64,000 nucleotides of DNA from a virus, in IMG/VR virus record IMGVR_UViG_3300043411_002794, positions 124,001 to 188,000 of that record; one strand, 5' to 3'. Shown here one piece after another: positions 634 to 57,616 of the stretch (position 1 is its first letter; the number at the start of each line of letters is the position of its first letter). The position numbers and the translations under genes were made by a program. The notes beneath the pieces were generated by a model. That model saw only the letters and a list, made by a program, of their open reading frames with translations. It ran no database searches and was not told the origin of the DNA.

Positions 634-1368
634 CTACAAAATGCTGAGGCTTTGACGCATGTCGAGCAACGCCTGAATCTTTGCTGCCCGCTGGCTGACG
701 GCACCGGGCGTGACGCCCAGCTTAGTTGCGATCCCGGAGACCGTCATCTTGCGGCGGCCGTTGCGGCCGAGCAGGTGATCCATCACGGCTCGGTCGGTGT
801 TGCCGAGATCGGCGTACACGAAGTTTTCCCAGGCCTGGTCGGTTTGCTTTAACGCCTGGCTGGCCGGCTCGTAGATGTCGCCTTCGGCATCTTCTACTTG
901 GGTCGTGCCTTCGGCGATCGGTAGGTTGAACTTGCGGAGCTGGGCCAATCGACCGAACGACATCCCAGTGCGGTCTGCCAGCTCGGCATCCGACGGGTCG
1001 CGGCCTAGTTCGTCCCGCAGGTTGTTTTCGGCCTCGTCCAGGTGCTTGCGGTTGAGGGCAACCGCTTCCGGGATGGAGATGATGTTTTGCTCTTGGGCCG
1101 ATTGACGGCGAAGGCCCTGCATCTGGCTGAGCAAATGCGTGCGAAGCGTCCCCCGTGCCGGGTCGTAACTCTGGAAAGCATTCAATGCCGACAGCCGCGC
1201 GCGGCTGCGGAATGTCGGACTGCCGATGCTGCTGCCGCCGTAACTGGTGATCGCCGAGTCGATGACCGGCCGCACCGCCGACAACAGAGTAGAGCTCGTG
1301 CCGGGGTTAGGCGACGCCTTCCAGGCAGTGAACGCAGGCTCGAATTCCTTCTCTAGCAGCGAATCCAT
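634..1368 (-). CDS. Sigma-70-like RNA polymerase sigma factor
   Basis: A 244-residue protein that I read as a phage sigma factor. Residues about 58-102 match sigma region 2 to 3.0: ALNAFQSYDPARGTLRTHLL, then QGLRRQSAQEQ and IPEAV, like the DPERG...F..YA.WWIRQAI...R.IR.P block of sigma-70. Residues about 116-140 (LRDELGRDPSDAELADRTGMS) match region 3. Residues about 205-232 (RKMTVSGIATKLGVTPGAVS) form a region-4-type helix-turn-helix. Region 1 is absent. An upstream ATG exists at 1416, but the ATG at 1368 has an AGAGGTG site and clears the neighbouring gene by 8 nt. It presumably directs a core polymerase, either the phage enzyme at 33-42 kb or the host one. Family assignment is fairly firm; the partner is inferred. 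Confidence 0.78.
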   Translation of the reverse strand: MDSLLEKEFEPAFTAWKASPNPGTSSTLLSAVRPVIDSAITSYGGSSIGSPTFRSRARLSALNAFQSYDPARGTLRTHLLSQMQGLRRQSAQEQNIISIPEAVALNRKHLDEAENNLRDELGRDPSDAELADRTGMSFGRLAQLRKFNLPIAEGTTQVEDAEGDIYEPASQALKQTDQAWENFVYADLGNTDRAVMDHLLGRNGRRKMTVSGIATKLGVTPGAVSQRAAKIQALLDMRQSLSIL

Positions 1369-1376
1369 TCGCACCT

Positions 1377-3020
1377 CTACGCAACAAAGACGTCGGCTAA
1401 CGGAGCACCGGTCCACGCTTTGGTATACAGCGGCGGCAGTTCGACGCTTGAATCATTGCTGGCATTCTCGGCCGCAGTTCGTACATGAGCAAGACTAAAG
1501 GCCGTGCCTGCCTGCTGGTTCTCGCAGTCCAACATAATCGAGGTCCGCAGCACAGTGGCAAAATAGATGACGTTCAGCTGATCGTTCCCGACAGTTTTCC
1601 CGGCCCCGCCCTGAATCTTGAGCGTCGAACCCGGGGCGATGTCGAAGCGGAGCTTACCGGAAATTTCCAGTGTCCGCCCCTTGAGTTGTTCCAACGTGTA
1701 CCAGTGGTGGGCGAAGTTATCGAGAATGTTCTTGAGGCTTTTCACGACAGCCCCGGGTGCGGTCTTCTTCGGCGGAGCTCCACCGCCGGGAGCGGCGGCA
1801 TGCCCGACGCCGTTCGTACGATCGGCATCCGCGGAGTCCGCGGCATAAGTACCGGGCGAAACGGCATTCTGCAGCCAGTTTGGGCTTTCCTTGATAAGGA
1901 CCATTCCCGACGGCCGCGAAGACTGATACCACCCGGCAATGGTCTTGTAGCCGACGTCTTCCGTCTGCGGGGCACCGTTTCCGTTGAGATCCATTGTGGC
2001 CGCGTGCCAGACGCCGACGGCCCGCAGTTGCTGCGTCATGAGATTGACGGAGCTGCTATGCGTATGGTCGTGATCGTTGATCGAGTACTCGTCGCCGTTC
2101 ACTGCGATATACGGCGTACGGAGTGATCCGGCAAACGGAACGACTAACGCATCTTCAATGCGCGGGATGACTGTGAAGAAGTACGACGGCACCCACTCGC
2201 CAATTAGCTTGCCCCAAAGCGTTGTATGTACCCAGCTTTGAAATGACTCGGACGTGAGTGCGTTACGTACGCCGGCCGCTATGGCACCGCCGTCGGCCTT
2301 GGTGAGGTTCATCGCGAGCGGTACGGCAAACTTGGATGCATTCGTCATGCGGGCCAGGGCGGCCTGTGCATCTACATTGCCGTTGGTTGATTCGCCGGGA
2401 AACGTATCTACTTTGGCAATGTCGGCCTGCGCCATCCGCAGCAACCAGGGGTGCAGAATATTTTTCCAAAGGTCGGTTTCGAGGGCGCCGTCCGTGATCG
2501 CGATTTCTTTGTCGTCGATGAGCGGTACCCACGTACGCGTTCCGGCCTCGCCGCCCTTCGTTCGGAGGCCGGGATAAATAGCCCCGTGAGCAAAATCACC
2601 GGAGCTGTGCGGATGTACGACCGAATTCAACGACGAAGGTCCATTGAGATCTTCCAGCCAATGTGTGAGTTGAATCAGCACGGAGGCTTCGTCGAGTGAG
2701 CGGTTGATCGCAACCCCGGCCACGCGACCAAGCCAAATCCGCACCTCGTCCTTTAGATTCAGCAGCGGCTCTTTGAGGTTATCGCTGCCCTGCGGAATGA
2801 CCGTGAGAAAGACTTCCGCCGCGGCGCCGGAAACAATTTTATCGATATTGGCGTGAATCGTTGCAGGGTTGCCGTCAGCATCAGCACCGACGGCCACGAC
2901 CAAGCCGGCTGAAGGCACGGAGCTACCTTCAAACGTACAGCCGAACCGCACGACGTCTTTGAATTCGACGCCGCCGATCTTGGCCCGCACTTTGAAAGCC
3001 AGCTTTGCCCAGGAACTCAT
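1377..3020 (-). CDS. Hypothetical tail/baseplate-region protein
   Basis: A 547-residue soluble protein with no signal peptide or membrane segment. The N-terminal 100 residues are beta-rich (KIGGVEFKDVVRFG...). The middle is mixed alpha/beta with several W-rich stretches (SWVHTTLWGKLIGEWVPSYF). A Pro/Gly/Ala linker near residues 415-430 precedes a beta-rich C-terminus. It overlaps the upstream gene by 4 nt in a run of tail genes after the tape measure, where baseplate proteins normally lie. I do not recognise the family; the baseplate role is inferred from synteny. Confidence 0.7.
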   Translation of the reverse strand: MSSWAKLAFKVRAKIGGVEFKDVVRFGCTFEGSSVPSAGLVVAVGADADGNPATIHANIDKIVSGAAAEVFLTVIPQGSDNLKEPLLNLKDEVRIWLGRVAGVAINRSLDEASVLIQLTHWLEDLNGPSSLNSVVHPHSSGDFAHGAIYPGLRTKGGEAGTRTWVPLIDDKEIAITDGALETDLWKNILHPWLLRMAQADIAKVDTFPGESTNGNVDAQAALARMTNASKFAVPLAMNLTKADGGAIAAGVRNALTSESFQSWVHTTLWGKLIGEWVPSYFFTVIPRIEDALVVPFAGSLRTPYIAVNGDEYSINDHDHTHSSSVNLMTQQLRAVGVWHAATMDLNGNGAPQTEDVGYKTIAGWYQSSRPSGMVLIKESPNWLQNAVSPGTYAADSADADRTNGVGHAAAPGGGAPPKKTAPGAVVKSLKNILDNFAHHWYTLEQLKGRTLEISGKLRFDIAPGSTLKIQGGAGKTVGNDQLNVIYFATVLRTSIMLDCENQQAGTAFSLAHVRTAAENASNDSSVELPPLYTKAWTGAPLADVFVA

Positions 3021-33276: not shown

Positions 33277-35148
33277 TTACCATCCCTTAGTCGGGCCGGT
33301 GAGCCCGAAGTCTTTTCCTTCCGCAAGCGACGGCACGAAGCTGGTTCCGGCGGTGTCCGAAACGTCTCCGCGATGCACGGCCTTGAGGAGTCCCTTTTGC
33401 TGATACGAACCAAGTCCGCGAACCATCCAGTCCTGATCCTGGGAAACGCTGGCCATCCCGCGAATCATCTCCGGCGAGAACGGCGGCGGATCCTTATGCG
33501 CATGCACGGCATTCACGCCGAATTGCTGCAGCTCGTCGAGCATCTTCTTACCGATCTTCGTCCCGATCGTGTAGTGCAACACGGGTTTTTCGAGGTAATG
33601 CCCGACCACGGTGTTCGGCGGGGCCACGTAGTAACCGGGCCGCGGTTCCCAGTGTTTTTCTATGCTGGAGTACGGCACAACGTCGCCTGGTGCCCAGTCG
33701 CCAAGCTCGTCGTCGAGGCGGACGTGATTGATGAGGCCGCGCGCCACCAGCTCGATATTCCGTCGGTTTCCGTAGGTACTGCTGTTTTTGAGCGTATCCC
33801 GAAATGAATTGACGAAGTAGCGGCGACCTTCGCCAATCCCTTTGTGATGCACGATTTCAGCCGGGTTCGGCACGCCTTCAGACAGCACGTCCCCGGCTTC
33901 AACCATGTCGCCTTTCTTGACGCGAAGCGGTAGCTCGGCGGGCACGTAATGCTTGGCGTCGCCGACGATCACGAAATGCCCGCCCTGCGGGGCCGGATTG
34001 ATCGCGTGGACCTTACCTTCGAGTTGTGCGTGCGTTGCCCCGTTCGGAAAGACCTCGGGCACTTGCACCAGGGCGTTGATTGCCTTGAAGCCGCCGACGG
34101 CACCCGCCGTGGCACCAGCGACGCCGCCGGAGTGCTTAGAGCTGATCGTGGCTTGTGTGACCGGTTCTGAGAGGGCGTTGGCGGCGGCAATCCCGACATA
34201 ATCGCCCAACGGCGACAGGCCTTGGCGTTCCCGGTACCCGGCGTCGCGCGCATACACGCCGCCGTCCGACGGACCGCCGACGGCCGCCGAGCGAACCAAA
34301 ATGCGGCTGATACCTGCTGCCTGCAGATCTTTCAGCACGCGGGGCGTTAAATGCGTATTTCGCGGGTAATTGGCGGCCGGATGCGCCAGTAAGGCGCCTT
34401 CATTATCGGCATCGTTGACGTCCACAGGGTAACCGCGGGGCGACGCTTCATCGTACGGATCGTCGTCATCGTCGGCCGTGACCAGGAGTCGATGGGCCGC
34501 CTGCATGAGCTGTTTGGCGAAGAACCCGGCGTCCGACGTACCGGCCTTCAAGTCGATCACGCCTTTGCGCGTACCGAAGGCACCGGCAAAGTATTCGGCC
34601 GGCGTCAGGCCTTCGCTGTAGCTGTGCATCACCGGAATCGGGATCGGTCGTCCCCGGTGGTCTTCGTAGAGCAGGTCGGCCCCGCGCAGGCTGTTCAGCG
34701 ACGAAGCGTTGCCGCGACCGGCCCCGGCCAGCTGACTCGCCAGCGGGTTATCTTCGGCCTGGCTCTCCGCCAACACGTCGTCCACGAGCTTCGGCCGCAC
34801 CTTCTGGATGGCGGCTACGATCGCATCGTTCCGGGCATCGCCGTCGAGCTCCGGGTTGTTCAGGATCTTCTGGATCGCTGGTTCGAGCTGCTGTTTGGCG
34901 AGCCGCGCGGACAGCGCGGGGCGAATTGCCCGCAGACCGAAAGAGTTGCCGTTGCTGAGATAGGCGGCCCGGCTGCCGACTTTCGAGAGCCGGAACATGA
35001 TGTCCCGGTACTTCTCCGGATGCTTCTCGGCGATCAGGTCGCCGAGGTCCACTATGGTCTTCTTGTTGACGACCCGGTCGTAGTCCCTGATGTCTTCGGG
35101 CAGCACCGAATTAACTAAGAGCTGACCTAAAGTCGTTTCAAGGGGCAT
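33277..35148 (-). CDS. rpoC (C-terminal): RNA polymerase beta-prime subunit, C-terminal part
   Basis: A 623-residue protein that continues beta-prime exactly where the fused beta/beta-prime protein stops. Its start (ETTLGQLLVNSVLPEDI) matches the TTVGRxxLxxxVPxGL segment of bacterial RpoC. The bridge helix is at about 186-213 (GTRKGVIDLKAGTSDAGFF), and the trigger loop at about 315-344 (GDYVGIAAANALSEPVTQAT, then SSKHSGG). A C-terminal clamp segment includes VKKGDMVEAGDVLSEGVPNP. The second RpoC zinc site, four cysteines before the trigger loop, is replaced by VRSAAVGGPSDGGVYARDAG, so it is lost. It would form the active-site half of a two-piece beta-prime. Confidence is high. Confidence 0.93.
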   Translation of the reverse strand: MPLETTLGQLLVNSVLPEDIRDYDRVVNKKTIVDLGDLIAEKHPEKYRDIMFRLSKVGSRAAYLSNGNSFGLRAIRPALSARLAKQQLEPAIQKILNNPELDGDARNDAIVAAIQKVRPKLVDDVLAESQAEDNPLASQLAGAGRGNASSLNSLRGADLLYEDHRGRPIPIPVMHSYSEGLTPAEYFAGAFGTRKGVIDLKAGTSDAGFFAKQLMQAAHRLLVTADDDDDPYDEASPRGYPVDVNDADNEGALLAHPAANYPRNTHLTPRVLKDLQAAGISRILVRSAAVGGPSDGGVYARDAGYRERQGLSPLGDYVGIAAANALSEPVTQATISSKHSGGVAGATAGAVGGFKAINALVQVPEVFPNGATHAQLEGKVHAINPAPQGGHFVIVGDAKHYVPAELPLRVKKGDMVEAGDVLSEGVPNPAEIVHHKGIGEGRRYFVNSFRDTLKNSSTYGNRRNIELVARGLINHVRLDDELGDWAPGDVVPYSSIEKHWEPRPGYYVAPPNTVVGHYLEKPVLHYTIGTKIGKKMLDELQQFGVNAVHAHKDPPPFSPEMIRGMASVSQDQDWMVRGLGSYQQKGLLKAVHRGDVSDTAGTSFVPSLAEGKDFGLTGPTKGW

Positions 35149-35155
35149 GTTTCGC

Positions 35156-35368
35156 TCATTTGCGCTGCACTAACGGCAGGTGATATTCTTTGGCGGTTTT
35201 CGCAAAAGTGGGATCGCCGAAGTTGGCACAGATATAGCTTCGCGGACCAACCTCCAAAACGAAGTTGATCAGATTACCGAAGTCGTCGTACACCAGGACA
35301 TTGCCGGTAGTTTTGGTCTCTATCGGCTTGAGGCCGTCACGCAGTTCCACTTGCATTGGCATGAGCAC
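35156..35368 (-). CDS. Small hypothetical protein between polymerase genes
   Basis: A 70-codon frame with possible starts at GTG 35368, ATG 35362 and ATG 35356; none has a good ribosome site, so it may be coupled to the gene it overlaps. It is a small beta-rich protein (TGNVLVYDDFGNLINFVLEV). It lies 7 nt upstream of beta-prime C. A polymerase-associated accessory protein is possible, but nothing in the sequence proves it. Confidence 0.5.
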   Translation of the reverse strand: MLMPMQVELRDGLKPIETKTTGNVLVYDDFGNLINFVLEVGPRSYICANFGDPTFAKTAKEYHLPLVQRK

Positions 35369-36140
35369 GCTGCCGAGATTGGAGGAGACGCATCACCGTC
35401 GCCGCCTTGGCAATCCCTGAATCGGGATCGTCGGCCATTGCGTGCGGACTGATACGCGAAACCGGATCGCCGATGTAGGAGTCGGCCTGCTTCTCATCTT
35501 CGAGCTGATGCTGCTCGTCGAGAATGCGCTGGGCAAGCATGGTACCGAACGCTGCTGCCTTGGACGCCGGGGCGGCACCTTGCATCGGTTCGACGGGTGA
35601 GATGGCGCCCGTATCGCCGCCGGCAGCCGGTTGTTGTACCGGACCTGGATCCATGGGACCGCCGGGGACTGCAGTCTCCGCGACCGGGGCGGACGTCATA
35701 CCGGGCGGCAATACGAGCACGCCAGGCGGCAGGGTGATGCCGTGGTGATTCATGATCGCCGTCACTTGCTGCTGGATGTTGTACAACCGCGTGTCCAACA
35801 TCTGCATCATTTGTTCGGGCTTGAGCTTTTGCTGGGCGGGAGCAGCCGGGGCCGCCGGAGCGCCGCCAGGCATCGAGCCGGGCAGCGGCTGAGCCGGTGC
35901 CGCCGGAGCAGGCGGAGGCATCCCACCACCGGCCATTGCAGCCGGGTCGCCAGGTGGGGGCGGAGGCATTCCACCAGCCATCGCAGCCGGGTCACCGGGA
36001 GGCGGCATTCCGCCTGCAGCCGCTGGGTCGCCGCCCGGAGGCGGAGCCATTCCGCCGCCCGGAGGTACGAACGCACGCTTTTCCGGATTACTCAACCGGT
36101 GCAGCGCCATCGTCATCAGTGTGTCGTCGATGCCTTCCAT
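35337..36140 (-). CDS. Pro/Gly/Ala/Met-rich protein between RNA polymerase genes
   Basis: A 267-residue protein starting at ATG 36140 with a strong GGAGG site; the frame to 36308 is an artefact. A short helical N-terminus (DDTLMTMALHRLSNPEKRAF) is followed by about 90 residues of PPGGDPAA/MAGGMPPP low-complexity repeats. A folded helical block (KLKPEQMMQMLDTRLYNIQQ) follows, then a polar C-terminus. The MAPPPGGD motif also occurs in the scaffold-like protein at 22.7 kb. Its place inside the polymerase operon is odd for a structural protein and supports a link between polymerase and virion. Confidence 0.6.
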   Translation of the reverse strand: MEGIDDTLMTMALHRLSNPEKRAFVPPGGGMAPPPGGDPAAAGGMPPPGDPAAMAGGMPPPPPGDPAAMAGGGMPPPAPAAPAQPLPGSMPGGAPAAPAAPAQQKLKPEQMMQMLDTRLYNIQQQVTAIMNHHGITLPPGVLVLPPGMTSAPVAETAVPGGPMDPGPVQQPAAGGDTGAISPVEPMQGAAPASKAAAFGTMLAQRILDEQHQLEDEKQADSYIGDPVSRISPHAMADDPDSGIAKAATVMRLLQSRQRAHANASGTA

Positions 36141-36198
36141 GGAACACTTCCTCCTGTGGGCGTAGTTGTACCGCGTCGCTGTAACTGACGGAAGCTCA

Positions 36199-39100
36199 CT
36201 AGGGACGCATGATCTTAATCCGTCGCGAGCCGTCGATTTCACCGCGTTCGTAAGCCCGTAATGCGTCCGCCGGGGTTTCGAACACCGTCGGGCGGTTGTG
36301 GGTATCAATTCGCGACGTCAAATGATACATGCCGCCGACGTATTCCTGACTCGGCAGGTAATGCGTACGGAATTTGGCGACGCTGAACAGGTTCTTGCTG
36401 GGGAGCATTTTCTCGGCCATTTCTTTGGCCGCTTCATCGTCTGCGGGCAAATGGAACTGCATGGCGTCACCGTCGAAGTCGGCGTTAAAGCCGCCGACCA
36501 CGAGCGGCGAGATCTGCATCGTGTGCCCCTTCATGATCTTCGGCCAGAAGGCCATCACGCCATAGCGGTGCAACACCGGGGCGCGATCGATCATCACCGG
36601 CCGCTGACCCATCTCCGACACTAGCGCTTCACGCGCAACCGGATGCTTGTTTTTAACGAGCTGGGCCGCTTGCAGTCGCGGCATCCCGCGGCGAACCAGG
36701 TGCCGCACGGTGTACGGCGTGTAAAGATCCCAGGCCTTTTCCTCCGGAAGCCCGACGCTGTCCATGTCCAGATCCGGGTTGGGCGTAATCGTCGCTCGCC
36801 CGACAAGATCGGTGGTCGTGCTGAGCAACTTGCGCTGAATCATGCCGAACTTCGGACTCGAGCCGAAGATCTGCTTGAGTAGACCTTTGACGCCCCGCTC
36901 CTGATTCTTCGGATGCTGCGGCTCACCGAGGCCCGACACCGCCTTCATCGCGTCGTACGTCGCCAGCCGTTCGTCACCGACGTCATCAACCTTGTCGGAC
37001 ATCTGCTTGAGCACGTCGTTGGCGTCGAACAATTCTTTGTAAAGATAGTTGGCATCGGCCACGAGCGGCAGCTTCTTCTGACCCATCGTCGTCACGGGGC
37101 GGAAGCGGGGCGGCAGCACCGGCACTTTACCCATGATCCAGTCTTTGGGGTGCACGCCGGTGCGGGCGGCCGCCGTCAGGAAGCCGAATTTGCGAATGGC
37201 TTCATCACGCTGGGTCTTCCGCGCGCTCTTGAGCGACAAACGGGTTTGTTCGATCTCGCGATCGAGATCGATGTTGGACAAGGCCTTGACGATTCCCTGC
37301 GGACCGCTGACGCCGTGCAGCGACTCACGGCCGGCCAGTACGTCCCGCATCTTGTTCTCAGTCAGCCCGAGAACGCGGCGAATCGGCTCTTCCATCACAG
37401 GGTTCGGCATCGGCTCATGCAGCCGAATAGCGGACCACCGCGTGCCTTCGTGGCCGCCGGTGATAGCCTCATCAAATAGACCGCCCCGCTTCGGCTTGAG
37501 GCCGTTCTTCCAGTCCACCGTCTCGGTGTTTTGGATCTCGCGGCCGCCGGTCAGCTCGTCGACCTTAGCCGGACTCATAGCCATCAGCTGCGTCCGTGTC
37601 CCGTCTTTAACTGGATGGATCCCGGCGCCCTGCAGCATCCCAATGAACTTTTCGTAGGTCTTCGGGATTCGCGGCGTCGTCGGCTGATAGCCGGACATGA
37701 ACTGCGACCAGAACTCAGGATTCGCCTGGCCCCGAATCATCTTCGCTTCACGAATGACCTTCCCGGCGCCGTGCGACAACAGGGCACCGAGGTTGAGCAT
37801 GCCGATCCGCTTAGCGCCGCTCTCGCCGCCCTTGGCCGGAGCACCTTCGCTGGTGTAGCCGCCGATGCCGCGGCCCTGGGCCTTGGCTTCCGACGTGTGA
37901 TGCAGCTTCATGAACCAACGATTCCCGGCAAAGACGTTCGGGATCTTCTTGCCGGTCTCCGGATCGATAACCGAATCCAGGTCGCTGAGGTTGTGCTTTC
38001 GCAGTTCGCTCATCGCAAACTCGACGGCATCGGTCGCCGTTCGGAACGGCACCTTATACGGCTTGCCGGTGACGGCCGCCACTTTGCCGAGAGCCGCCTC
38101 GATCATTTGGGCGGCGTTCACGCGGCTGATGACGCCGAGCGGATTGGTGAGGATCTCGTAGGGTTTGCCTTGTGCGTCAGTCGGCATCTCGTCGTCGGGA
38201 ACGATCATCGAAATGACGCCCTTGTCGCCGTAGCGACCACTGAGCTTGTCGCCGACTTCAGATGGAACAGTGGCCTTCACGACGACTGTGGCGCCTTTGT
38301 CGGTGTTGACGACGTCAGTTACAGTTCCCGGGGCATGATGGTCCCAGGTGATGCTGCTATCAATGACCTCCGGTCGTCGACCACGATGGATCGCTCCATG
38401 TGTCCGTTCGCGTTCTGTGATACTAAGTACCAGGGGATCGCCGTAACGGATCTCTGTTCCTGGTTTGACGACTCCGTCGTCGGTGAACTGGTCGAGGACG
38501 GCACGATGAAATCTTCCAGGAAAGTTTGACAGGAAGGCATTCTTGCCGCGGCGGACGTCGGGTCCCCATTCGGCGACATGCTGATAGGCATGCTCGGAAG
38601 ATAATCGCTTGGCAGCGCTCTCGCTGATGACGTTGGCGTCTTCAAAATTGGCTCCGCGGAAGGGCAAATATGCGACGCGCAGGTTTTTACCCAGCGCAGT
38701 AACGCCCTGACCGTCCGTGAAATTGGAGCGCGCCAAAAGCTGCCCCGGCTGAACCACGTCGCCCGGTTTGACGACAGCGGTCTGCGTGATGAGGGTGTTG
38801 TGCACGATGAGCCCGTGGTCGACACCGAACACCTCCGATTCAGCAACGCAGAAATCGTAAACATGGGCTTCGTGCGGGATTGCCTCCACGGCGACTACCG
38901 TATCCCACATAACGTCGGACGCACCCCACTTGCCGAAGTTGCCGGTACCTGCGACCAGCCGATGCTTGGCCACAGCGCCCTTACCAGCGGTCTTGTAAAC
39001 ATAATTGGACGACTGCGGCAGTTCGGCATACAGCGACTTTCGGGCAAGCTTAGACACGATCGGCACCATGTCGTACGGCGACGCCCGGTACGCCCGACGA

Positions 39101-41850
39101 AGCAGTTCGCGGAAAAGCTGCTCGCGATCGTCGTAGAAGAACCAGCGGGAGAGCCGTGAGAGGTGGCTGCTGATGATGCGGAAGCCGTACGCGTCGTTCC
39201 AGTTATCGTTGAGGTGTTGCCGCGGGGCGTCGAACAGCGTCGAAAAAATCTGCAGCGAGGCGGCCAGCGTCACCAGTCCGTCGCGAAGTCGGCGGGACGT
39301 GCTAACGGCCTGGACTTGAATCGCCCCGCCGGCGTCTGCCCAAAGGCACCCGTCTCCGGCGAAATAGCCGCTCAGCAGGCAACTCCGCGCGTCACTTTGC
39401 CACGTGAGCACCTCCGGCGAAATAAACTTACCGCCGGAGGTGCAGCCGAAATTCGTCAGGAGCCATGCGCGTAGTTCGTGCGACGTAAAGCAAACCTCAC
39501 CGCCGACGCGATAAGGCGACGTCCCGAGCCGCTGCAGTAATTCCAGGATCTGTGCTGCGCGAATATCGGGCTCAACCGCAATTTTTACGAGCCCTGCCTG
39601 CTCTGGCAGGTGTCCTTCGGCAAGATATAGGCCCGCAAGCGAGGCGAGATCAGTAGATACTTGTGCGTCGCCGTCGCACGGCACCATGGCGACTGGCAGC
39701 CGCGTGCGATTGATTACCACGTCAGCAGGAAAGATTGGCGACAGGTTCCCGGCTGCATCCAGCGTCACCAAACTATGATCGATCGTAATGTCGACTGCAC
39801 GGCCGGACGCAGTCCGAACACGAACGAGCCGCTTATCGTTGTCGTGCCGAATAAATCCGGTAATTCGGCACCACTTTGATTTTTTCGTAAGCGGGTCGAC
39901 AGAAAGTACGTCGTCGCCGGCGTGCGCGACATACTCAGAAATTGGACCTTCCCAGTACCCACCGTTACGCCGAATCAGTACGCGAGTACGCCCGGTAACG
40001 CTTTTACGGTTGTACGGCATGTTGTCATAGAGATCGACTCGCTTCTTGCTGCCGTCGGCATGCTTGAGCACGATGCCGTTACGATCGACACTGACGACGC
40101 TGGCCGGTTGATCGGCGTGCACGGCGCCCATGTGCTTGGCATATTCTTCTTCGAAGCTGCGTTCGGCGTTCTCGGGCATCGCACTCTGTACGAGCGGAGC
40201 TTCGCCATCCTGCAACGGCAACGCTTGGGTCACCATTCGCGCGGCCATCACCGCCCGCTGGCCCTTGACCATCGACTTGAGCGGAATGAGGTTCGCCAAC
40301 GGCGAGAACGTGTCTTCGATCGCCGGCAGCACGTAGTCGACCTTGTCGGCTCGTTCGTACCGCATTTTGCCGCCGGCGAGCACGTTGACGAACGTGTTGC
40401 CGCCGTACTGCACTGGACCCGTTTTCCGTCCGTCGCCGCCCCAGAACTTTTTGGCGGGCGGCTCCGGTCCGTTTGGGTTCACCGGTGCTTGCGGCACGGG
40501 CTCGAAAGCAATGACGGAATCGGCCAGATCCCGGGCAGACTTGTATTCTGTCTGCCCAGATTTCGCGTTCTGCAGCGGGAAGTACAGAAAGCCGTCGTCG
40601 CCTTTGACGGCTTTGCGGGCCAGCCGCATGTCGACGCCCACTTTTCCGGATTCCGGAGTCCGCAAAAAGTCAACGAAGCCCAGGTGCGTCGGCTGCACGG
40701 CCCGCGATTCCTCGGGCACGGCGTCGAGGCTGCTGATACCGCCTTCGCCCATACGGGTCAGGCGGCTTTGCTGGTCGAAGATTTCGGCCGGATTGATTTC
40801 TTCAATCGGAGCGCCGAGGCCACTACCGATGATCGCGGACTGAATCGCACGATCGAAGAAGCCGGGTTGCACGCCGTCAAGATTCTGGCGGGCCGATACC
40901 TTCCAGAGCAGCTTGCGCAACTCGCCGCCGCTCTTTTCCAGCCGCTCCGCCAGCAGGTTCTCCGGCCCGAGCACATGCTGATAGGCCATGTGGTCGCGGT
41001 CGTCGGGCTCCGCTTCGCCGCGATTGATATCCAGCAGCTTCTTGGTGGTCGCCAGTATCGTCGGCAGGTCCAGCTTGGTCGACTTGTGCTTCAGCGTGCG
41101 ATTGGTGACGAAGTCGTCGAGCTCCATACCGCCGAATGATTCAGCAACGGCCTTTGCCATTACCTCCGGGTCCGCTCCTTCGACCCGGTTGCGGGCGACG
41201 CGGTCGTACAACTTGCGGATCACCGTGTTGTCGGCCTTGGCGGCGTTGATGCCGGCCAGGTCGTTGCCCCAGGTGTCGCGGAGCTGCTGATCGGTGGCGC
41301 CCATTGCCCGCAGCAACGGATAGAGCGGCATGTTGGCCTGCGCCATGTTCAGTTTGAACACGCCCGACTCCGGATCCATGAAGATCCGGTGCCCGCGGCC
41401 CTTGCCTGGCAGCACGTTGACGTGTGCTTCCAGCTCGCCGTTCTGCTTCTTACGGGCGAAAATCCCCGGTGCGAGCCGGAGCTGGTGGGCCAACGTATAT
41501 CCCACGCCGCGGTTAATAAACAAACCGTCGTCGATCAGGTACGGGACATTTGCCAGCGTCGCCCGTCGCTCCGCAATCGATTTCCCGGTCGCGTTGTCGC
41601 TCAGTTGCCAGGTACCGCGTAAACGTCGTGTTAGCGACGTACCGCTCAACACGGCCCGCTTCACGTCCTGCTTGCTGTACTCTTCCGGGCCCTCGTAGGC
41701 GACGTCGGCGAGCTGCAGCGTATGTCGCTGGTTCTGGACCGGCTTCAGTGCCGTGGCTGCCTTGAAGACGTTGTCGAAGATCAGCTTGCGCGTCGTGGGC
41801 GCATCGCCGAAGTTTCGGAACGACGGGGCGACTGGCAGTAATTCGGACAT
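36199..41850 (-). CDS. rpoB-rpoC (N-terminal) fusion: RNA polymerase beta fused to N-terminal half of beta-prime, with intein
   Basis: An 1883-residue precursor; removing the intein (617-1018) leaves 1481. Beta landmarks: FINRGVGYTLAHQLRLAPG (about 111-129), QPTHLGFVDFLRTPESGKVG (386-405), GKNLRVAYLPFRGANFEDAN (1054-1073), GDKLSGRYGDKG (1200-1211), NPLGVISRVNAAQM (1236-1249). Beta ends near 1396-1414 (KTYEKFIGMLQGAGIHPV) and beta-prime starts near 1425 (SPAKVDELTGGREIQNTETV) with only about 10 linking residues. Beta-prime landmarks: GLFDEAITGG, VLPPRFRPV (1578-1586), LVGRATI, RPVMIDRAPVLHRYG, and the catalytic NADFDGD at 1789-1795. The beta-prime N-terminal zinc ribbon is missing. It ends in the loop before the beta-prime C gene. 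An AGGAG site precedes the ATG. Confidence 0.95.
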   Translation of the reverse strand: MSELLPVAPSFRNFGDAPTTRKLIFDNVFKAATALKPVQNQRHTLQLADVAYEGPEEYSKQDVKRAVLSGTSLTRRLRGTWQLSDNATGKSIAERRATLANVPYLIDDGLFINRGVGYTLAHQLRLAPGIFARKKQNGELEAHVNVLPGKGRGHRIFMDPESGVFKLNMAQANMPLYPLLRAMGATDQQLRDTWGNDLAGINAAKADNTVIRKLYDRVARNRVEGADPEVMAKAVAESFGGMELDDFVTNRTLKHKSTKLDLPTILATTKKLLDINRGEAEPDDRDHMAYQHVLGPENLLAERLEKSGGELRKLLWKVSARQNLDGVQPGFFDRAIQSAIIGSGLGAPIEEINPAEIFDQQSRLTRMGEGGISSLDAVPEESRAVQPTHLGFVDFLRTPESGKVGVDMRLARKAVKGDDGFLYFPLQNAKSGQTEYKSARDLADSVIAFEPVPQAPVNPNGPEPPAKKFWGGDGRKTGPVQYGGNTFVNVLAGGKMRYERADKVDYVLPAIEDTFSPLANLIPLKSMVKGQRAVMAARMVTQALPLQDGEAPLVQSAMPENAERSFEEEYAKHMGAVHADQPASVVSVDRNGIVLKHADGSKKRVDLYDNMPYNRKSVTGRTRVLIRRNGGYWEGPISEYVAHAGDDVLSVDPLTKKSKWCRITGFIRHDNDKRLVRVRTASGRAVDITIDHSLVTLDAAGNLSPIFPADVVINRTRLPVAMVPCDGDAQVSTDLASLAGLYLAEGHLPEQAGLVKIAVEPDIRAAQILELLQRLGTSPYRVGGEVCFTSHELRAWLLTNFGCTSGGKFISPEVLTWQSDARSCLLSGYFAGDGCLWADAGGAIQVQAVSTSRRLRDGLVTLAASLQIFSTLFDAPRQHLNDNWNDAYGFRIISSHLSRLSRWFFYDDREQLFRELLRRAYRASPYDMVPIVSKLARKSLYAELPQSSNYVYKTAGKGAVAKHRLVAGTGNFGKWGASDVMWDTVVAVEAIPHEAHVYDFCVAESEVFGVDHGLIVHNTLITQTAVVKPGDVVQPGQLLARSNFTDGQGVTALGKNLRVAYLPFRGANFEDANVISESAAKRLSSEHAYQHVAEWGPDVRRGKNAFLSNFPGRFHRAVLDQFTDDGVVKPGTEIRYGDPLVLSITERERTHGAIHRGRRPEVIDSSITWDHHAPGTVTDVVNTDKGATVVVKATVPSEVGDKLSGRYGDKGVISMIVPDDEMPTDAQGKPYEILTNPLGVISRVNAAQMIEAALGKVAAVTGKPYKVPFRTATDAVEFAMSELRKHNLSDLDSVIDPETGKKIPNVFAGNRWFMKLHHTSEAKAQGRGIGGYTSEGAPAKGGESGAKRIGMLNLGALLSHGAGKVIREAKMIRGQANPEFWSQFMSGYQPTTPRIPKTYEKFIGMLQGAGIHPVKDGTRTQLMAMSPAKVDELTGGREIQNTETVDWKNGLKPKRGGLFDEAITGGHEGTRWSAIRLHEPMPNPVMEEPIRRVLGLTENKMRDVLAGRESLHGVSGPQGIVKALSNIDLDREIEQTRLSLKSARKTQRDEAIRKFGFLTAAARTGVHPKDWIMGKVPVLPPRFRPVTTMGQKKLPLVADANYLYKELFDANDVLKQMSDKVDDVGDERLATYDAMKAVSGLGEPQHPKNQERGVKGLLKQIFGSSPKFGMIQRKLLSTTTDLVGRATITPNPDLDMDSVGLPEEKAWDLYTPYTVRHLVRRGMPRLQAAQLVKNKHPVAREALVSEMGQRPVMIDRAPVLHRYGVMAFWPKIMKGHTMQISPLVVGGFNADFDGDAMQFHLPADDEAAKEMAEKMLPSKNLFSVAKFRTHYLPSQEYVGGMYHLTSRIDTHNRPTVFETPADALRAYERGEIDGSRRIKIMRP
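38797..40002 (-). other. Intein with LAGLIDADG motifs (in RNA polymerase beta region)
   Basis: A 402-residue intein, Ser617 to Asn1018. Block A is SVTGRTRVLI. The endonuclease-type motifs are LAGLYLAEG (738-746) and LLSGYFAGDG (825-834). Block F is HVYDFCVAESEVFGVDHGLI, ending VHN1018, and the +1 extein residue is Thr1019. It is a Ser1/Thr+1 intein, so a different residue class from the Cys1/Cys+1 intein in the protease gene. The insertion lies in beta between DLYDNMPYNRK and TLITQTAVVKPGDVV, at the position of the conserved RSNQNTxINQ segment of RpoB. Confidence 0.93.
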
Positions 41851-45891: not shown

Positions 45892-46797
45892 CTAGCGGGC
45901 ACAAGCCCAGGCGACGGCCTGGACATACTCAACGGCCTTCACGGGATCGAGTTTACCGTCTTGCTTGCCGAGATAGCCCTGCAATGCCTGTGTGGCGGCC
46001 GTGCTAAACCCAGGGAAAGCGCCGGCCAGCTCCGCCTTAATGGCGACAGCGTTCAGGAACGTCGCAAGCGTGCCCTGAAACTCGAGGACCGTGGTTGGCG
46101 GCATCACCCGCAAAGCCACGGCCAGGTCGCTCCACGCCGACGAAAACCGATTAGCTTTCACAGGATCAGCGGTAGCCATCAATTGCTTCAACGGGGCGAC
46201 CAGTGTTTGCAGCTCCGCCGACGGCGCCGGAATAGCGGGCGTAACAGGAGTTACCGGCGTAACGGGAGTTACTGGTGTCACCGGAGTCACCGGCGTAACA
46301 GGAGTCACCGGCGTAACAGGCGTTACCGGTGTCGGCGAGTACGGCAAAATCGAAAAGCTGTACTTCCAAAGCAGCGACTTCCCTTCACGAAGCCCGCCGG
46401 CGAGTACGACGTATTCACCCGCCGTGTCGGTACTGACCTGCAGCGTGCGATTACTGTCGGTGTACGCTTCCGTCAGTTTCGGCGGCACGATCGCCCACTG
46501 CGGTTCAGTGACGTTATCGGGCAACTTGAACGTACAAAGAGCGCCGAACTTCACGGGACCGGCGGGCCCGGCAATGTCGCCGGTATTGGTGACAGCCGTC
46601 GCTGTGCCCGTTGCCGTCGGCGTCGGGATCGCGAGTACCGGTTTGCCCTGCTGATCGACCACAACAACGGTCGTCGGCTTGGCGGGTACGTCGAACAGCT
46701 CTTTGCGGCCGGCGAATACAAGACCGACGCTCAACAAAACAGCAGCGAGCGGAAGCCATTGGCCCAGCGGGCCTTTGGTAGGTGCGGGAAGCGGCAT
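45892..46797 (-). CDS. Membrane-anchored protein with Thr-Pro-Val repeat linker
   Basis: A 301-residue protein starting at ATG 46797 (AAGGAA site). One N-terminal transmembrane helix ([17 protein letters not shown], about residues 14-30) is followed by a Val/Thr-rich beta domain (about 45-155) and ten perfect TPV units (about residues 156-187), then a helical C-terminal domain (about 195-301). The extended Pro-rich spacer would hold the C-terminal domain away from the membrane or periplasmic face. A cell-envelope role is inferred. The function is unknown. Confidence 0.62.
46243..46332 (-). repeat. Tandem 9-nt repeat encoding (TPV)10
   Basis: Ten consecutive nonamers encode Thr-Pro-Val, with varied synonymous codons (ACA/ACG/ACT, CCG/CCT/CCA/CCC, GTA/GTG/GTT). 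Identity is higher at protein than DNA level. The repeat may vary in copy number by slippage. Confidence 0.85.
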
Positions 46798-46839
46798 GGG
46801 TACATTCCTTGCGAGTGACGAAACCTGCGGCACTGTGCC

Positions 46840-48724: not shown

Positions 48725-49351
48725 TTAAGCGGGCGGCCGTAGCGTACGCGATAACGCCGACTTTACCAACGGAGAAGGACGTGCCAGGGCTGCCTTGAGC
48801 GCCGGAGAGACATTTTCCCAGGCCAGCGGACACGGATCCAGGTGCCGCACGAAGTCGAGCAGTGAGGCGGCCTTGGAAGTCGGATTGCTTCGCAAAACGC
48901 CGACTTTCCGCACGGCGAAGGTGATGTGAAATTCGTACGTGTCGTTGGGCAGACTGCTCAGCCCGTACGTCCGTCGCAATGCCTTGAGCTCGGGACTCTG
49001 CACTTCGATAAACCAGACGCGGCTAACACCATCCCAAGTACCCGGCACCACGGTCTTCACCGGCCCGAGCGTGTAGTGAAAGTCCTTGCCGCGTTCGGTG
49101 ATCTTGTCGATGCCGCCGATCTGCTGCAGCTCTTCGGGACGCATCACGCTGATATGCGCGTTGTACGTCTCCGCGTCGCCGCTGGTCGGCAGCGAGATCC
49201 CGGGTTCATTGAGCGCCTTGAACGCAGCCCGACCAATGTCGTTTGGGGCCTGGAGCAGCAGCCAGCCGCTCTTAGAGGCGTACAGCTTACCGGCCAGCCC
49301 ATACGACAACTCCGGCGCGCCCGCCGCCTTAATTGGCTCGGAGTGAATCAA
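48725..49351 (-). CDS. 2H phosphoesterase superfamily-like protein (anti-defence candidate)
   Basis: A protein of 208 residues starting at TTG (49351), which follows AAGGAGCC; the frame to 49483 is otherwise an Arg-rich shadow. It has two HxS/T motifs, NAHISVM (His66-Ser68 by this start) and EFHITFAV (His142-Thr144), 76 residues apart, the hallmark of 2H phosphoesterases (2',3'-cyclic nucleotide or 2'-5' ligase type). The same superfamily includes phage Acb1, which cleaves cyclic oligonucleotide signals of CBASS. Substrate choice (tRNA end, cyclic oligonucleotide, other) cannot be read from sequence alone. It overlaps the PAS gene by 23 nt. Confidence 0.62.
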   Translation of the reverse strand: MIHSEPIKAAGAPELSYGLAGKLYASKSGWLLLQAPNDIGRAAFKALNEPGISLPTSGDAETYNAHISVMRPEELQQIGGIDKITERGKDFHYTLGPVKTVVPGTWDGVSRVWFIEVQSPELKALRRTYGLSSLPNDTYEFHITFAVRKVGVLRSNPTSKAASLLDFVRHLDPCPLAWENVSPALKAALARPSPLVKSALSRTLRPPA

Positions 49352-49895
49352 AGATCGGCTCCTTCGGGACGTTGTCAGGCCGAATGAACGCAACAAACTC
49401 CGGCGCACCGTCGACCATGAACCCGCGGCAAAAAATGGACACGTGCAACGACGTGCCGTCTTTCTTTTTGGCGTCGCCGTCAAAGTGCGATTTCACTTCG
49501 CGCGTCTGTGCCGTAAATTTCTGCGGCGCCTTTGCCATGTATTCGACGTGTGTTTTCCGAAACGCGTCGGCGACCAGTAACGAAGACGGTTTGCCGAGCA
49601 ACTCGGCAGGCTTATAGCCGAGCATATCGGCCAGCGTCTTATTCACCGCGGTAATGTTGCCGCGACTATCACACACCACGGCACCGACGGGCGAGCTGTC
49701 CATAACTATCCCGAAACGACGCTGCTGCATTTTCAGCAATTCTTCGTACTCGTCGACCTTGGCCTTGAGTTCGTTCTCTCGCGACAGTTGTGCGTCGCGG
49801 ACGTACGAAAAACGGTAGCCGTTGACGATGATGAGTACGATCATCACCACGAGCATACCGCCGGCTAGTAAAAACCGCGGACTACGCTTGTTCAT
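49329..49895 (-). CDS. Membrane-anchored PAS domain protein
   Basis: A 188-residue protein. An N-terminal transmembrane helix (FLLAGGMLVVMIVLIIVNGY, about 8-27) is followed by a coiled-coil linker (about 33-60) and one PAS domain (about 61-172) with the typical start MDSSPVGAVVCDSRGNITAV, MLGYKPAELLGKP, and KKKDGTSLHVSIFC. No kinase, cyclase or HTH output domain follows. PAS domains sense ligands or redox state and can dimerise. An encoded standalone PAS could interfere with host signalling by mixed oligomers, but that is inference. A GGAGGAGAAGG site precedes the ATG. Confidence 0.8.
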   Translation of the reverse strand: MNKRSPRFLLAGGMLVVMIVLIIVNGYRFSYVRDAQLSRENELKAKVDEYEELLKMQQRRFGIVMDSSPVGAVVCDSRGNITAVNKTLADMLGYKPAELLGKPSSLLVADAFRKTHVEYMAKAPQKFTAQTREVKSHFDGDAKKKDGTSLHVSIFCRGFMVDGAPEFVAFIRPDNVPKEPIFDSLRAN

Positions 49896-50248
49896 CCTTC
49901 TCCTCCGGGCTGTTCGCCCTTGCCGTTTTGCCCGTTCTTATTACTGCCTATGCGCAAGCTGAACCCGCCATTCTCCTGCACAGTTCGCCAGAGATCGAAG
50001 ATGCTGACGCCGCCCAGGCCGCCGGCAGCACTTACGCCGAGCAAAAAATAAATGTTCCCCTCTTCGCGATACTTGTTGTACCAGATCAGCGCGATCGTGA
50101 TACCGGTCATGCCGCTGTAGAGCACAGCGGCAACCACGGCCTTTTTCGTCAACTTTTTCGTGCTATGGAGCAGCCCGGCCAGTCCTCCGACCGCAGCTAA
50201 AGCGAAGGCACTCAACATCACACGCAAAGGATCAAACTGCTCTTCCAT
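49892..50248 (-). CDS. Putative holin (multi-helix membrane protein)
   Basis: A 118-residue protein with three hydrophobic segments: VMLSAFALAAVGGLAGLLHS (about 10-29), KAVVAAVLYSGMTGITIALI (about 36-55) and YFLLGVSAAGGLGGVSIFDL (about 67-86). Its hydrophilic, Gly/Asn/Lys-rich tail is typical of three-TM holins (LydA-like). A AAAGGAAA site lies upstream of the ATG. It overlaps the PAS protein gene by 4 nt. It is a better holin candidate than the 47.2 kb gene, but no adjacent endolysin is seen. Confidence 0.58.
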   Translation of the reverse strand: MEEQFDPLRVMLSAFALAAVGGLAGLLHSTKKLTKKAVVAAVLYSGMTGITIALIWYNKYREEGNIYFLLGVSAAGGLGGVSIFDLWRTVQENGGFSLRIGSNKNGQNGKGEQPGGEG

Positions 50249-50538
50249 GAAATTTCCTTTGCAACACAGTTTGCGTCCCTGAGATCCCCTTCCTCAGGTC
50301 CAGACGCCGAGGTTACCCCCAGCGTTAATTGCAACAACCAGTACGGCGTCCCCGCCGTAGACACCGATCGTTACTCCTCCAAGCCCCGGGTCGCGGCCTT
50401 AACCATGACCAGAGGCGTCCCGGTATGAACCTATGCATCCTGCATCGAGCTCGTACCTCCTAACCAGCCAGTGTCATGACTAACGCACCGTGTGCCGTCG
50501 AATGATAAAAAAGCGGCCGCAGAAAACCAAGAGACGTT
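50249..50538 (-). other. 290-nt gene-poor interval with possible recoded ORF
   Basis: No standard ORF spans this gap. From ATG 50445 (AGGAGGT upstream) a frame reads MQDA, amber, then a protein-like segment (VHTGTPLVMVKAATRGLEE). At TTGGAGGAG a shift to the -1 frame would give GGVTIGVYGGDAVLVVAINA and end at 50294. It could be a broken small gene or a recoded one. A CCTGAG/CTCAGG inverted repeat lies near 50278-50298. A GCGGCCGC palindrome with A6/T6 at about 50504-50515 is not a clear terminator. Confidence 0.35.
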
Positions 50539-51687
50539 CTACTCCCAGGCAGAAAGGGTTTCACAGACATTGGATACGGCCGCCGAAGTCGTAAAGGGAG
50601 AGATCGCGAGATAGATGCCATGCTGCTGTACGTGGCGGGCGTTCGTAAGCGGTGACAGGTTCCGAATACCAAATCGCTGCATAAACGGCTGCATCGCTAA
50701 ATTTCCGGCAACAATCGGCCTCGTGGCAATCTCAGCCAGCTGGAAATGATTCACCAATGCGTGCCGGCGTGCAACGCCACCTTCTGCAAGCACCAGCGGA
50801 TACGCGAACCAAGAATGACGACCTTCGCCGATTTTATATCGTAAAAATCCATCCGGCGTGGCTTGACGAATCTGCGTGGCAATGTTGAACCGACGCGTCT
50901 GCCACTCCTCAACAAAGGGTAGTTGTTTAAGGCCCAGCTCCCCTTGAATCTCCATCGGTCGGACGTTGTAGCCGAGCGTCGGGAACAAGAACCGTGGATC
51001 CAATTCCGGATGGCGATCCGCCCAAAACTTCATCCGCTCCGCCCCGAGATCCCGGATCCAGCCATGCGCGCGCTGCATCACGAGTTCTTCGTACAGCTCC
51101 GGTGAATTCGTCGTCACCATCCCGCCCTCGATCGTGACGAGGTGGTGGCTATAGAAGAAGCTGAACGTACCCATGTCGCAGTCGGAGCCGACATGCCGAC
51201 CTGTGCCGAACGTATCGCGACCTGCCGGGCCGTAGTGCGTGCCGAGTGCTTCACAGCAGTCCTCGATCACATACTTGAACGTGCCTGTGTCCACTTGGGG
51301 CGGCTGCCCGAGCAAATGGCAGTTGAACAGCACATCGCACCGCTCGTCGACGTGCTGGCGAAGCACCAGCGTCGAGAGATCTACGTCGAGCAGAATCGGC
51401 TTCAACCCGAGCTGCACGACCGGGGCGATCGTGGTACTCCAGTTGACGGCCGGAATACCGACCGTCTCGATCTCCGGGTGCAGCGTCTTGAGTGCGCTGA
51501 TCGACAACAGGTTGGCGGACGAGCCGCTGTTGACCATAACGGCGTACTCGGTACCGACATATCGGGCAAACTCGGTCTCAAACGCTTTCACGAACCGGCC
51601 CATCGACAACTCGCCGGAACGAATGCACTCCAGTTGCTGCAGCGTTTCCGGGCCGAAGGGCGGGTTAGGTACTAGCTGGTCCTTCAT
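50539..51687 (-). CDS. DegT/DnrJ/EryC1/StrS-family PLP enzyme, ColD-like (3-dehydratase candidate)
   Basis: A 382-residue fold-type I PLP enzyme. It has GTEYAVMVNSGSSANLLSIS (about 45-64, phosphate-binding), FKYVIEDCCEALGTHYG (about 137-153), and FSFFYSHHLVTIEGGMV (about 175-191). In the aminotransferases of this family the last segment carries the Schiff-base Lys; here the equivalent spot is SHH with no Lys. His at this position is the signature of the GDP-4-keto-6-deoxymannose 3-dehydratase (ColD) type. It would therefore make 3,6-dideoxy sugar intermediates. It sits at the end of the glycosyltransferase cluster. The substrate is inferred. Confidence 0.8.
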   Translation of the reverse strand: MKDQLVPNPPFGPETLQQLECIRSGELSMGRFVKAFETEFARYVGTEYAVMVNSGSSANLLSISALKTLHPEIETVGIPAVNWSTTIAPVVQLGLKPILLDVDLSTLVLRQHVDERCDVLFNCHLLGQPPQVDTGTFKYVIEDCCEALGTHYGPAGRDTFGTGRHVGSDCDMGTFSFFYSHHLVTIEGGMVTTNSPELYEELVMQRAHGWIRDLGAERMKFWADRHPELDPRFLFPTLGYNVRPMEIQGELGLKQLPFVEEWQTRRFNIATQIRQATPDGFLRYKIGEGRHSWFAYPLVLAEGGVARRHALVNHFQLAEIATRPIVAGNLAMQPFMQRFGIRNLSPLTNARHVQQHGIYLAISPFTTSAAVSNVCETLSAWE

Positions 51688-52015
51688 GAGCTTTCCATGC
51701 CTCGTGGTTGTGCAATCGCGGGCGGCAGTCGGCTAACAGGATCTGCCGCGGACGCCACCGCATGCCGCGAAAACATTGAATTCCTACAACTTTGGTGACG
51801 GGATCATAAAAGCGAACAACTACATAGTGGCTCCGTCCAGCAGGTACATTCTTGGCGAAGACTTCCTCTCCGCATTTTGGAATCCATCCGGACGGAAACG
51901 GCCTCGCAAATACCTCCGCCAGCTCCGCCCCTTCTTTCCTAGCCTTCGATAACTGAGCCTTCCTGGCTGCGCGTTCCGGCGTCTCCCTCGCCAGCGGTCG
52001 CGTTACTCGCGGCAT
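51665..52015 (-). CDS. Small basic hypothetical protein
   Basis: A 116-residue basic protein starting at ATG 52015 with a GGAG site (the frame to 52087 is rejected). An Arg/Lys/Ala-rich helical N-terminus (RPLARETPERAARKAQLSKA) is followed by a beta-rich part (SHYVVVRFYDPVTKVVGIQC) and RGMRWRPRQ. It overlaps the glycosyltransferase gene by 77 nt and the DegT gene by 23 nt. It may be an RNA- or DNA-binding accessory; there is no clear family. Confidence 0.5.
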   Translation of the reverse strand: MPRVTRPLARETPERAARKAQLSKARKEGAELAEVFARPFPSGWIPKCGEEVFAKNVPAGRSHYVVVRFYDPVTKVVGIQCFRGMRWRPRQILLADCRPRLHNHEAWKAHEGPAST

Positions 52016-52757: not shown

Positions 52758-53269
52758 GATACTTTCCGAAGGTTAGTGACACGGGACGGAAGAATGACGC
52801 GAAGTCGCTGTGGCCAGCGGGCAATGAAGGCCCCAAGCGGATTGGCCAGCTTATGGTTAAACCACGGCCGCCGTCGCTGTAGTCGCACATCGTCGGCGTG
52901 GAATAAGAAGAAATCGGTCGGCTGCAGCTCGGCCGCCAGGTGCAGATGCCCGTGGCGAAATGCGCCGGTGCACAGCGGCTCGGTCTCCGGCATGCTGAGC
53001 TGCGGCTGCAACACGAGCATCCAACCTTCGCGGCCCAGCATCTTGATGCCGGTTTCCAGCGGGCAGCCGCGATTGAGCGGTACGTCGGTGACGAAACAGC
53101 GGACGCCCCGCGAATAGTAATCGCGGCAAAGTAGTTGCGTCTTATGATCCGCAGGATGCGTGACCACAAGTAGCGAAGCGAGTTGGCGTACGTTCTGCGG
53201 TAGGGCGGCTGCGAGAACCTCGTCCTCTCCATAACACCAAACTAAACCGCGAACGGGGCTAATCGTCAT
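52754..53269 (-). CDS. Short glycosyltransferase-like protein
   Basis: A 171-residue protein starting at ATG 53269 with a GGAG site; the upstream frame to 53353 is not used. It looks like a small or divergent GT2 fold (LASLLVVTHPADHKTQLLCR; CFVTDVPLNRGCPLETGIKM; DFFLFHADDVRLQ), with a DxD-like ADD. It may be a truncated transferase or a helper of the next GT2 gene, which it overlaps by 4 nt. Confidence 0.5.
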   Translation of the reverse strand: MTISPVRGLVWCYGEDEVLAAALPQNVRQLASLLVVTHPADHKTQLLCRDYYSRGVRCFVTDVPLNRGCPLETGIKMLGREGWMLVLQPQLSMPETEPLCTGAFRHGHLHLAAELQPTDFFLFHADDVRLQRRRPWFNHKLANPLGAFIARWPQRLRVILPSRVTNLRKVS

Positions 53270-53353
53270 GATCGACTCCGTTTGTCGCTTTGTAACCGTC
53301 GTGGTACTCTGCGGCAACTCGCAACAGCCTACAATATCCCTCACGAGTGGCAA

Positions 53354-55728: not shown

Positions 55729-55730
55729 CG

Positions 55731-55931: not shown

Positions 55932-55935
55932 GTGG

Positions 55936-57494: not shown

Positions 57495-57526
57495 AACATC
57501 CCTGCATGTGAGTTGAGAACGTGATA

Positions 57527-57548: not shown

Positions 57549-57559
57549 GTTGCAACTTG

Positions 57560-57608: not shown

Positions 57609-57616
57609 CCAATTAC

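Follow-up and report, generated by a model that had tools for sequence, protein, structure and literature searches.

A beta/beta-prime fusion RNA polymerase in a widespread group of tailed phages, with a separate beta-prime C-terminal chain and a probable single-chain ancestor

The window studied here is a 64,000-nucleotide stretch of viral DNA that spans bases 124001-188000 of a virus record 192,194 bases long (IMG/VR: IMGVR_UViG_3300043411_002794). On its minus strand, where all window features described below lie, positions 36199..41850 form one open frame encoding the beta subunit of RNA polymerase (RNAP), an intein and the N-terminal half of beta-prime (beta-prime-N), with 1883 amino acids before splicing and 1481 after. 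Along this ORF the Pfam matches follow the order Rpb2_3, Intein_splicing, LAGLIDADG_3, Rpb2_6, Rpb1_1 and Rpb1_2, with the Rpb2_3 and Rpb1_1 matches under the curated cut-off. The beta N-terminal part (N-extein, residues 1-616; 40003..41850) ends at the extein/intein boundary NRK|SVTG. The beta C-terminal part (C-extein, residues 1019-1414; 37609..38796) aligns to Salmonella RpoB with equivalents of the catalytic E813/D814, K1065/K1073, R1106 and H1237, and its last residues, GAGIHPV up to residue 1414, are the equivalent of the bacterial beta C-terminus. An earlier reading of the sequence alone (the sequence-only reading) had proposed that beta is joined in one frame to the N-terminal half of beta-prime, with a junction of about 10 residues from IHPV to SPAKVDEL. 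The Pfam order and the open frame bear out the join, and by alignment nine residues, KDGTRTQLM (37582..37608), separate the beta end (IHPV) from the beta-prime start (AMSPAKV). Since AMSPAKVDEL aligns with bacterial LASPDMIRSW, about 22 N-terminal beta-prime residues are missing from the fusion. The beta-prime half (residues 1424-1883; 36202..37581) matches E. coli beta-prime 160-549 in the PDB profile comparison, contains the catalytic Mg-binding motif NADFDGD (36466..36486) and ends at the equivalent of E. coli K549. The fusion in the window phage is real; chance is excluded by the main Pfam matches of 1e-20 to 1e-49 and by recurrence in about 150 distinct sequences.

The remainder of beta-prime is encoded by a separate gene, as the sequence-only reading had also recognised. 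This gene (beta-prime-C; 33277..35148) encodes 623 amino acids with a match to Rpb1_5 (7.1e-21), and its family profile matches PDB beta-prime at 4e-105. Because the fusion stops at the K549 equivalent and beta-prime-C resumes at the equivalent of E. coli T572, the cut in beta-prime lies in the loop 549-572. Beta-prime-C contains the bridge helix (residues 183-218; 34495..34602), which is one unbroken helix in the AlphaFold2 model (mean pLDDT 87.2), followed by the ZN2 region and the trigger loop, whose N-terminal helix was placed at residues 318-342 (34123..34197) by model and alignment. Between the two RNAP pieces are an ORF for a proline-rich protein with no match in the family search (35337..36308) and a small, purely mechanical ORF (35156..35368).

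In the alignments, the beta catalytic residues R678, Q688, E813, D814, K1065, K1073, R1106 and H1237 are kept and identical to those of enteric RNAP. The catalytic residues R352, R425, N458, D460/462/464 and the trigger-loop His (E. coli H936) of beta-prime are likewise kept, and R933 is replaced by Ser. The rifampicin pocket carries the changes Q513A, D516E, H526Q and S531T, which suggests that the polymerase of the window phage is insensitive to rifampicin. The AlphaFold2 model of the fusion part after the intein (865 amino acids, pLDDT 86.8) has PDB matches among beta-prime/gamma chains (E 3e-30), the best being cyanobacterial gamma chains, and to a beta chain, 8gzh_C (3.5e-27); the model of beta-prime-C (623 amino acids) has T. 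thermophilus beta-prime as its best match (E 5e-26, TM 0.77). Structure prediction, which had been proposed as a check on the earlier reading, supports complete active-centre parts on the two pieces in models of each single chain. By alignment and model, the Asp triad, the Lys pair of the two barrels, the bridge helix, the trigger loop and the overall fold are those of a bacterial-type enzyme. ZN1 and ZN2, the zinc sites that beta-prime has in this type, are missing.

The title of the sequence-only reading was right about the fusion and left out the 402-residue intein with its LAGLIDADG domain (residues 617-1018; 38797..40002), which on its own matches Intein_splicing at 1.7e-12 and LAGLIDADG_3 at 4.8e-9. 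The intein is inserted between NRK and TLITQ, corresponding by alignment to E. coli beta N762/T763. It is missing from most relatives, and an insert of similar size is found at the same place in the loci L063 and L064. The chain of the window phage would be matured by protein splicing. Another ORF of the window (24047-26641, 864 amino acids), with Hint/Intein_splicing and LAGLIDADG_3 matches, is a second intein-bearing gene.

The fused RNAP genes of the clade (L059, L063, L065, L087, L172, L195, L203, L227 and others) have big inserts, probably mostly inteins, in a wide variety of places, including the vicinity of the catalytic motif and of the trigger loop, and some genes seemingly have three. 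In Vibrio phage D181 (L004:8899-14413) an insert of about 950 bases that contains a homing-endonuclease gene, probably an intron, breaks the beta part of the fusion gene, unlike the whole gene of its relative D69. In two divergent phages (L087:5790-5830, L086:776-830 and L090:11560-11620) an RNAP intein after GDKM is followed by a TGA five residues into the downstream extein (SGRYG). The remainder of the polymerase after the TGA has no obvious start codon and is in-frame in L086 and L087 and in another frame in L090. This might reflect readthrough or frameshifting, a scar left by repair, or a gene that is genuinely split.

The window also encodes a phage sigma factor of 260 amino acids (634..1416), orthologous to the virion protein gp10 of Salmonella phage Arash (gp10-orthologue profile 3e-81 at record positions 124652-125353). 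It has a Sigma70_r3 match (2.6e-6), and the profile of its family matches SigA among the PDB sequences at 1e-14. Orthologues were found in 32 of 34 viral records, namely in all 12 records with a full beta/beta-prime fusion and in 20 of 22 of the split group, the two misses being L009, a 33-kb fragment, and the L084 record. Profile searches in which the positive controls worked covered 14 phage records for alpha domains and 10 for omega, and detected neither. Protein and PF00623 searches found one recognisable RNAP set in the window genome.

Among the other genes of the window, a 932-residue tail-sheath-like protein (12059-14857; PHROG 279, 1e-11) supports a contractile tail. A further protein (45892-46833) has about ten TPV repeats in a run. 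The region 48725-60341 holds genes for a 2H phosphoesterase, a PAS domain, a DegT aminotransferase, a methyltransferase, a glycoside phosphorylase-like protein and a glycosyltransferase, perhaps for glycan synthesis or modification.

A search of phage genomes for the same fusion and split, also proposed with the earlier reading, showed that the layout recurs. Scans of IMG/VR gave 84 loci, most at 51-63% identity and some at 42-43%. The group also has members in culture, namely Salmonella phage Arash (gp206 and gp216; OQ632216) and Vibrio phages D69, D181 and D148. The window phage has 59-63% identity to its nearest kin, and about 35% (fusion part) and 27-28% (beta-prime-C) to Arash and D69. 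Beta and beta-prime-N share one ORF in all 87 split-type loci (the 84 from IMG/VR plus Arash, D69 and D181), and the profile of the beta N-terminal part matches this same ORF in 83 of them. A beta-prime-C ORF was found in the stretch around the fusion in 77 of the 87, always on the same strand and with a median gap of 966 bases. Two fetched loci are interrupted inside the beta part. No viral locus among those fetched has separate intact beta and beta-prime-N genes, a result that in part reflects how the queries selected loci. The sequence-only reading had left open whether the arrangement is new to databases: the layout is clade-wide and not new to them, since it lies unrecognised in the deposited isolates (Arash gp206 and gp216, D69/D181).

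In the GTDB scan we found a partial copy in a Planctomycetaceae MAG and, on a Deltaproteobacteria MAG contig, a single ORF of 2167 amino acids comprising beta, beta-prime-N and beta-prime-C. This lead, pursued in IMG/VR, gave a second group, called full fusions here, of 88 ORFs including the MAG one (80 distinct, median 2131 amino acids), in which whole beta and whole beta-prime form one chain of about 2,100 residues; one scan reported at least 484 relatives. Other MAG contigs (L129-L132 and L134-L137; Poribacteria, Armatimonadetes, Hydrogenedentota and others) carry ORFs of about 890-1,135 amino acids with beta and beta-prime barrel matches; these short chains are a compact RNAP type, unlike the window fusion. 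OR844998, OR846602, CAKLQF020000005 and similar phage-labelled records are apparently pieces of bacterial chromosomes with cellular rpoB/rpoC, adjoined by ribosomal protein genes in CAKLQF020000005, and are a contamination trap for searches for phage RNAP.

The two zinc sites differ in their distribution. In the window phage ZN1 (E. coli C70/72/85/88) is deleted, its place being taken by GGLFDEAITGGHEGTRW (37435..37485), and ZN2 (C814/888/895/898) is represented by non-Cys residues or gaps, with none of the four cysteines in the corresponding region (34231..34470). The ZN1 stretch is without cysteine in all scored split rows except L059, which has one, and in all 53 scored full fusions; a further 35 full fusions were unscored by the regular expression, and their printed sequences have no cysteines there. 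A ZN1 cysteine cluster was therefore seen in neither the split nor the full-fusion group. ZN2 is all-or-none: all four cysteines are present in 82 of the 88 full fusions and in eight split loci (Arash, D69, D181, L062-L065 and L088), and the other 67 sequences, including the window, have zero. As ZN1 is missing in both groups and ZN2 is kept in most full fusions and some split loci, the loss of ZN1 is old and that of ZN2 later. ZN2 was perhaps lost more than once, because L084 is also without it and branches, with weak support, among the keepers. The claim of the earlier reading that both zinc sites are lost is true for this genome, but two separate events are involved, ZN1 being absent clade-wide and ZN2 mainly within the split clade; a joint loss is ruled out by the different depth and distribution.

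We built a careful tree from 35 sequences and 1376 columns, with six bacteria as the only cellular rows and no archaea. All phage sequences form one clade apart from the six bacteria (100/100). Within it the split forms are one clade (97/98), with the full fusions around its base in an unsettled branching order. A quick tree of 63 rows shows a pair of sister groups, each modestly supported (84 and 91), and the split clade is recovered by a tree of beta-prime only (90) and not by one of beta only. The full fusions may be either a sister clade or paraphyletic. As the split forms are one clade, full fusion was probably the ancestral state and the cut came second. Beta-prime is undivided in bacteria and in the full fusions alike, so a single cut in the split lineage gives the most economical history. 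The ancestor would have been a phage polymerase with beta and all of beta-prime in one chain of about 2,100 residues, already without ZN1; beta-prime-C would have been freed when the chain was afterwards cut in the 549-572 loop (E. coli numbering), and ZN2 would have been lost later still. The 'half beta-prime' of the sequence-only reading is thus correct as to the split, and its origin is best explained by a later cut in a single-chain ancestor.

The opposite order, in which beta-beta-prime-N with a separate beta-prime-C (or phiKZ-like pieces) was ancestral and the full fusions were joined again later, is quite unlikely. It would fit the beta-prime of phiKZ and AR9, likewise cut after the catalytic barrel, and some of the trees give little support to the basal branching of full against split forms. 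However, with bacteria and full fusions uncut, a primitive cut requires two changes rather than one; the split clade is supported at 97/98, and its basal members keep ZN2, like most full fusions. A recent capture of host rpoBC accompanied by gene fusion, or an artefact of assembly or annotation, is extremely improbable. Among cellular organisms, Helicobacter and Wolbachia have rpoB-rpoC fusions, with beta and beta-prime joined head to tail in the manner of the sister full-fusion phages, in enzymes that have alpha and no secondary cut in beta-prime. Yet the deep phage clade apart from the six bacteria rules out a recent host capture, and an artefact is ruled out by the same fusion in 87 loci from independent contigs and from isolates, cultured phages among them.

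Closest to the window phage are Arash, D69, D181 and D148, whose fusions have the same end point, with a separate beta-prime-C and no ZN1; Arash and D69 also share the sigma orthologue. They differ from the window in the kept ZN2, the missing intein at the window site, the motif AADYDGD and an identity of about 35%, and their genes are annotated only as 'beta' or hypothetical. The mReC described by Weinheimer and Aylward in 2020 are uncultured tailed phages with beta and beta-prime in a deep clade (PMC7481178). The sequences studied here likewise come from tailed-phage contigs, many of them from IMG/VR, with beta and beta-prime alignable to those of cells and in a clade apart from bacteria. 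The window phage itself is tailed, has beta and beta-prime homology and NADxDGD, and lies apart from the six bacteria. Compared by description, the mReC paper treats beta and beta-prime as subunits, and is silent on any fusion, splitting, inteins or loss of zinc sites in them (PMC7481178). None of its contigs was among our IMG/VR matches, though adjacent sample numbers appeared. A major capsid protein of PF07068 was reported in the eight mReC where a capsid was found (PMC7481178); no PF07068 (gp23-type capsid) match was detected in the window record and 11 relatives (T4 control 1.6e-122), so that a link through this capsid was rejected for the 12 records. The sequences here likely overlap with mReC.

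The phiKZ and AR9 polymerases (vRNAP and nvRNAP) resemble that of the window phage in the absence of alpha and omega and in the cut of beta-prime after the catalytic barrel; one of their forms is packaged in the virion (PMC7598289), as is proposed below for the window enzyme. They have a cut beta not joined to beta-prime, two sets per phage and no recognisable sigma (PMC7598289, PMC7824862), whereas the window phage has an unbroken beta fused to beta-prime within a single ORF, one enzyme that was found and a sigma-70-family factor. The arrangement therefore does differ from the usual jumbo-phage split, as the earlier reading had said. In cyanobacteria and plastids beta-prime also consists of two chains (gamma and beta-prime), cut after the catalytic barrel. 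There beta is unfused and gamma extends about 69 residues beyond the phage end point, which rules out convergence on the exact cyanobacterial cut. The phage enzymes crAss-like gp66, YonO and P23-45 gp64/gp96 have both barrels in one chain and some are packaged in the virion, but they have little similarity to cellular RNAP, whereas the window beta and beta-prime are mostly alignable (PMC10770324). The same paper mentions multisubunit derivatives 'with fused DPBB domains', unnamed in its text, and may thereby give earlier notice of the full fusion (PMC10770324). The passages covered of a 2026 jumbo-phage review do not describe the arrangement (PMC13282480), and no description of a beta/beta-prime-N fusion in phages was found in the literature covered, whose scope excluded supplements, preprints and most subscription papers. 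The arrangement is real, coherent and widespread and, as far as the literature covered shows, undescribed.

For the function of the enzyme the virion proteome of Arash is a lead. Gp206 tops all proteins there with 3516 spectra, 128 unique peptides and 100% coverage, and Gp216 (40 unique peptides, 1210 spectra), the sigma factor Gp10 (24 and 467) and the helicase Gp217 (1148 spectra) were also detected (PMC10585845). The authors named Gp206 beta and Gp216 beta-prime and proposed early transcription or carry-over (PMC10585845). By alignment Gp206 is the beta/beta-prime-N fusion, a one-chain state that bottom-up spectrometry does not prove, and its gene is one ORF away from the portal gene. From the proteome and this identity we propose that the enzyme is an early polymerase packaged in the virion together with a sigma of its own. 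The function is carried over a distance to the window phage, given the identities of only about 35% and 27-28% to Arash and D69. Its core would consist of two polypeptides, the spliced beta/beta-prime-N fusion and beta-prime-C, working with the phage's own small sigma and without phage alpha or omega; the covalent link between beta and beta-prime probably substitutes for alpha, the assembly platform that is missing. The complex is most likely packaged in the virion and would enter the cell with the DNA and transcribe early phage genes, so that early expression may not need the host RNAP.

Two points of this proposal can be read differently. The polymerase may be made after infection for middle or late genes, with its detection in Arash particles due to carry-over. 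Carry-over of abundant intracellular protein was raised by the Arash authors for the particle enzymes, and many enzymes, including DNA ligase and ribonucleotide reductase, are among the 116 virion proteins (PMC10585845); the single RNAP gene set found in the window genome, against two in phiKZ-type phages (PMC7598289), points the same way. We regard this as unlikely: the spectra of the Arash fusion, which is also the larger protein, exceed those of the major capsid protein (3516 vs 1333), beta-prime-C, sigma and the neighbouring helicase are also high in the particles, and the fusion gene has the portal gene as its near neighbour. Host alpha or omega may instead join the phage chains, the fusion then being no substitute for alpha. 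Alpha is the assembly platform of cellular multisubunit enzymes (PMC7598289), and neither subunit was found in the phage records searched, but the non-virion enzyme of AR9 needs no alpha for its activity (PMC7598289), and we give such host dependence a similarly low probability. It is likely, on balance, that the window phage encodes a two-chain bacterial-type RNAP with its own sigma, packaged in the virion for early genes and descended from a single-chain ancestor. The broader reading is slightly favoured, namely that a widespread lineage of large tailed phages packages a complete bacterial-type RNAP with a single-chain ancestor, a dedicated virion sigma and no need of alpha, omega or ZN1, and that in one branch, to which the window phage belongs, the chain was cut again behind the active site, near the cyanobacterial site and distinct from it.

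With the Arash fusion identified by sequence as the most detected particle protein, the lead from virion proteomics is now testable. The two chains with sigma, and possibly one chain with sigma in the sister group, are a compact system for testing the need for alpha, omega and the zinc sites, which would address assembly and initiation. A bacterial-type polymerase is seen here going through fusion and re-splitting in nature with its catalytic residues retained, which bears directly on how the RNAP of jumbo phages and of cyanobacteria could have come to be scattered in pieces.
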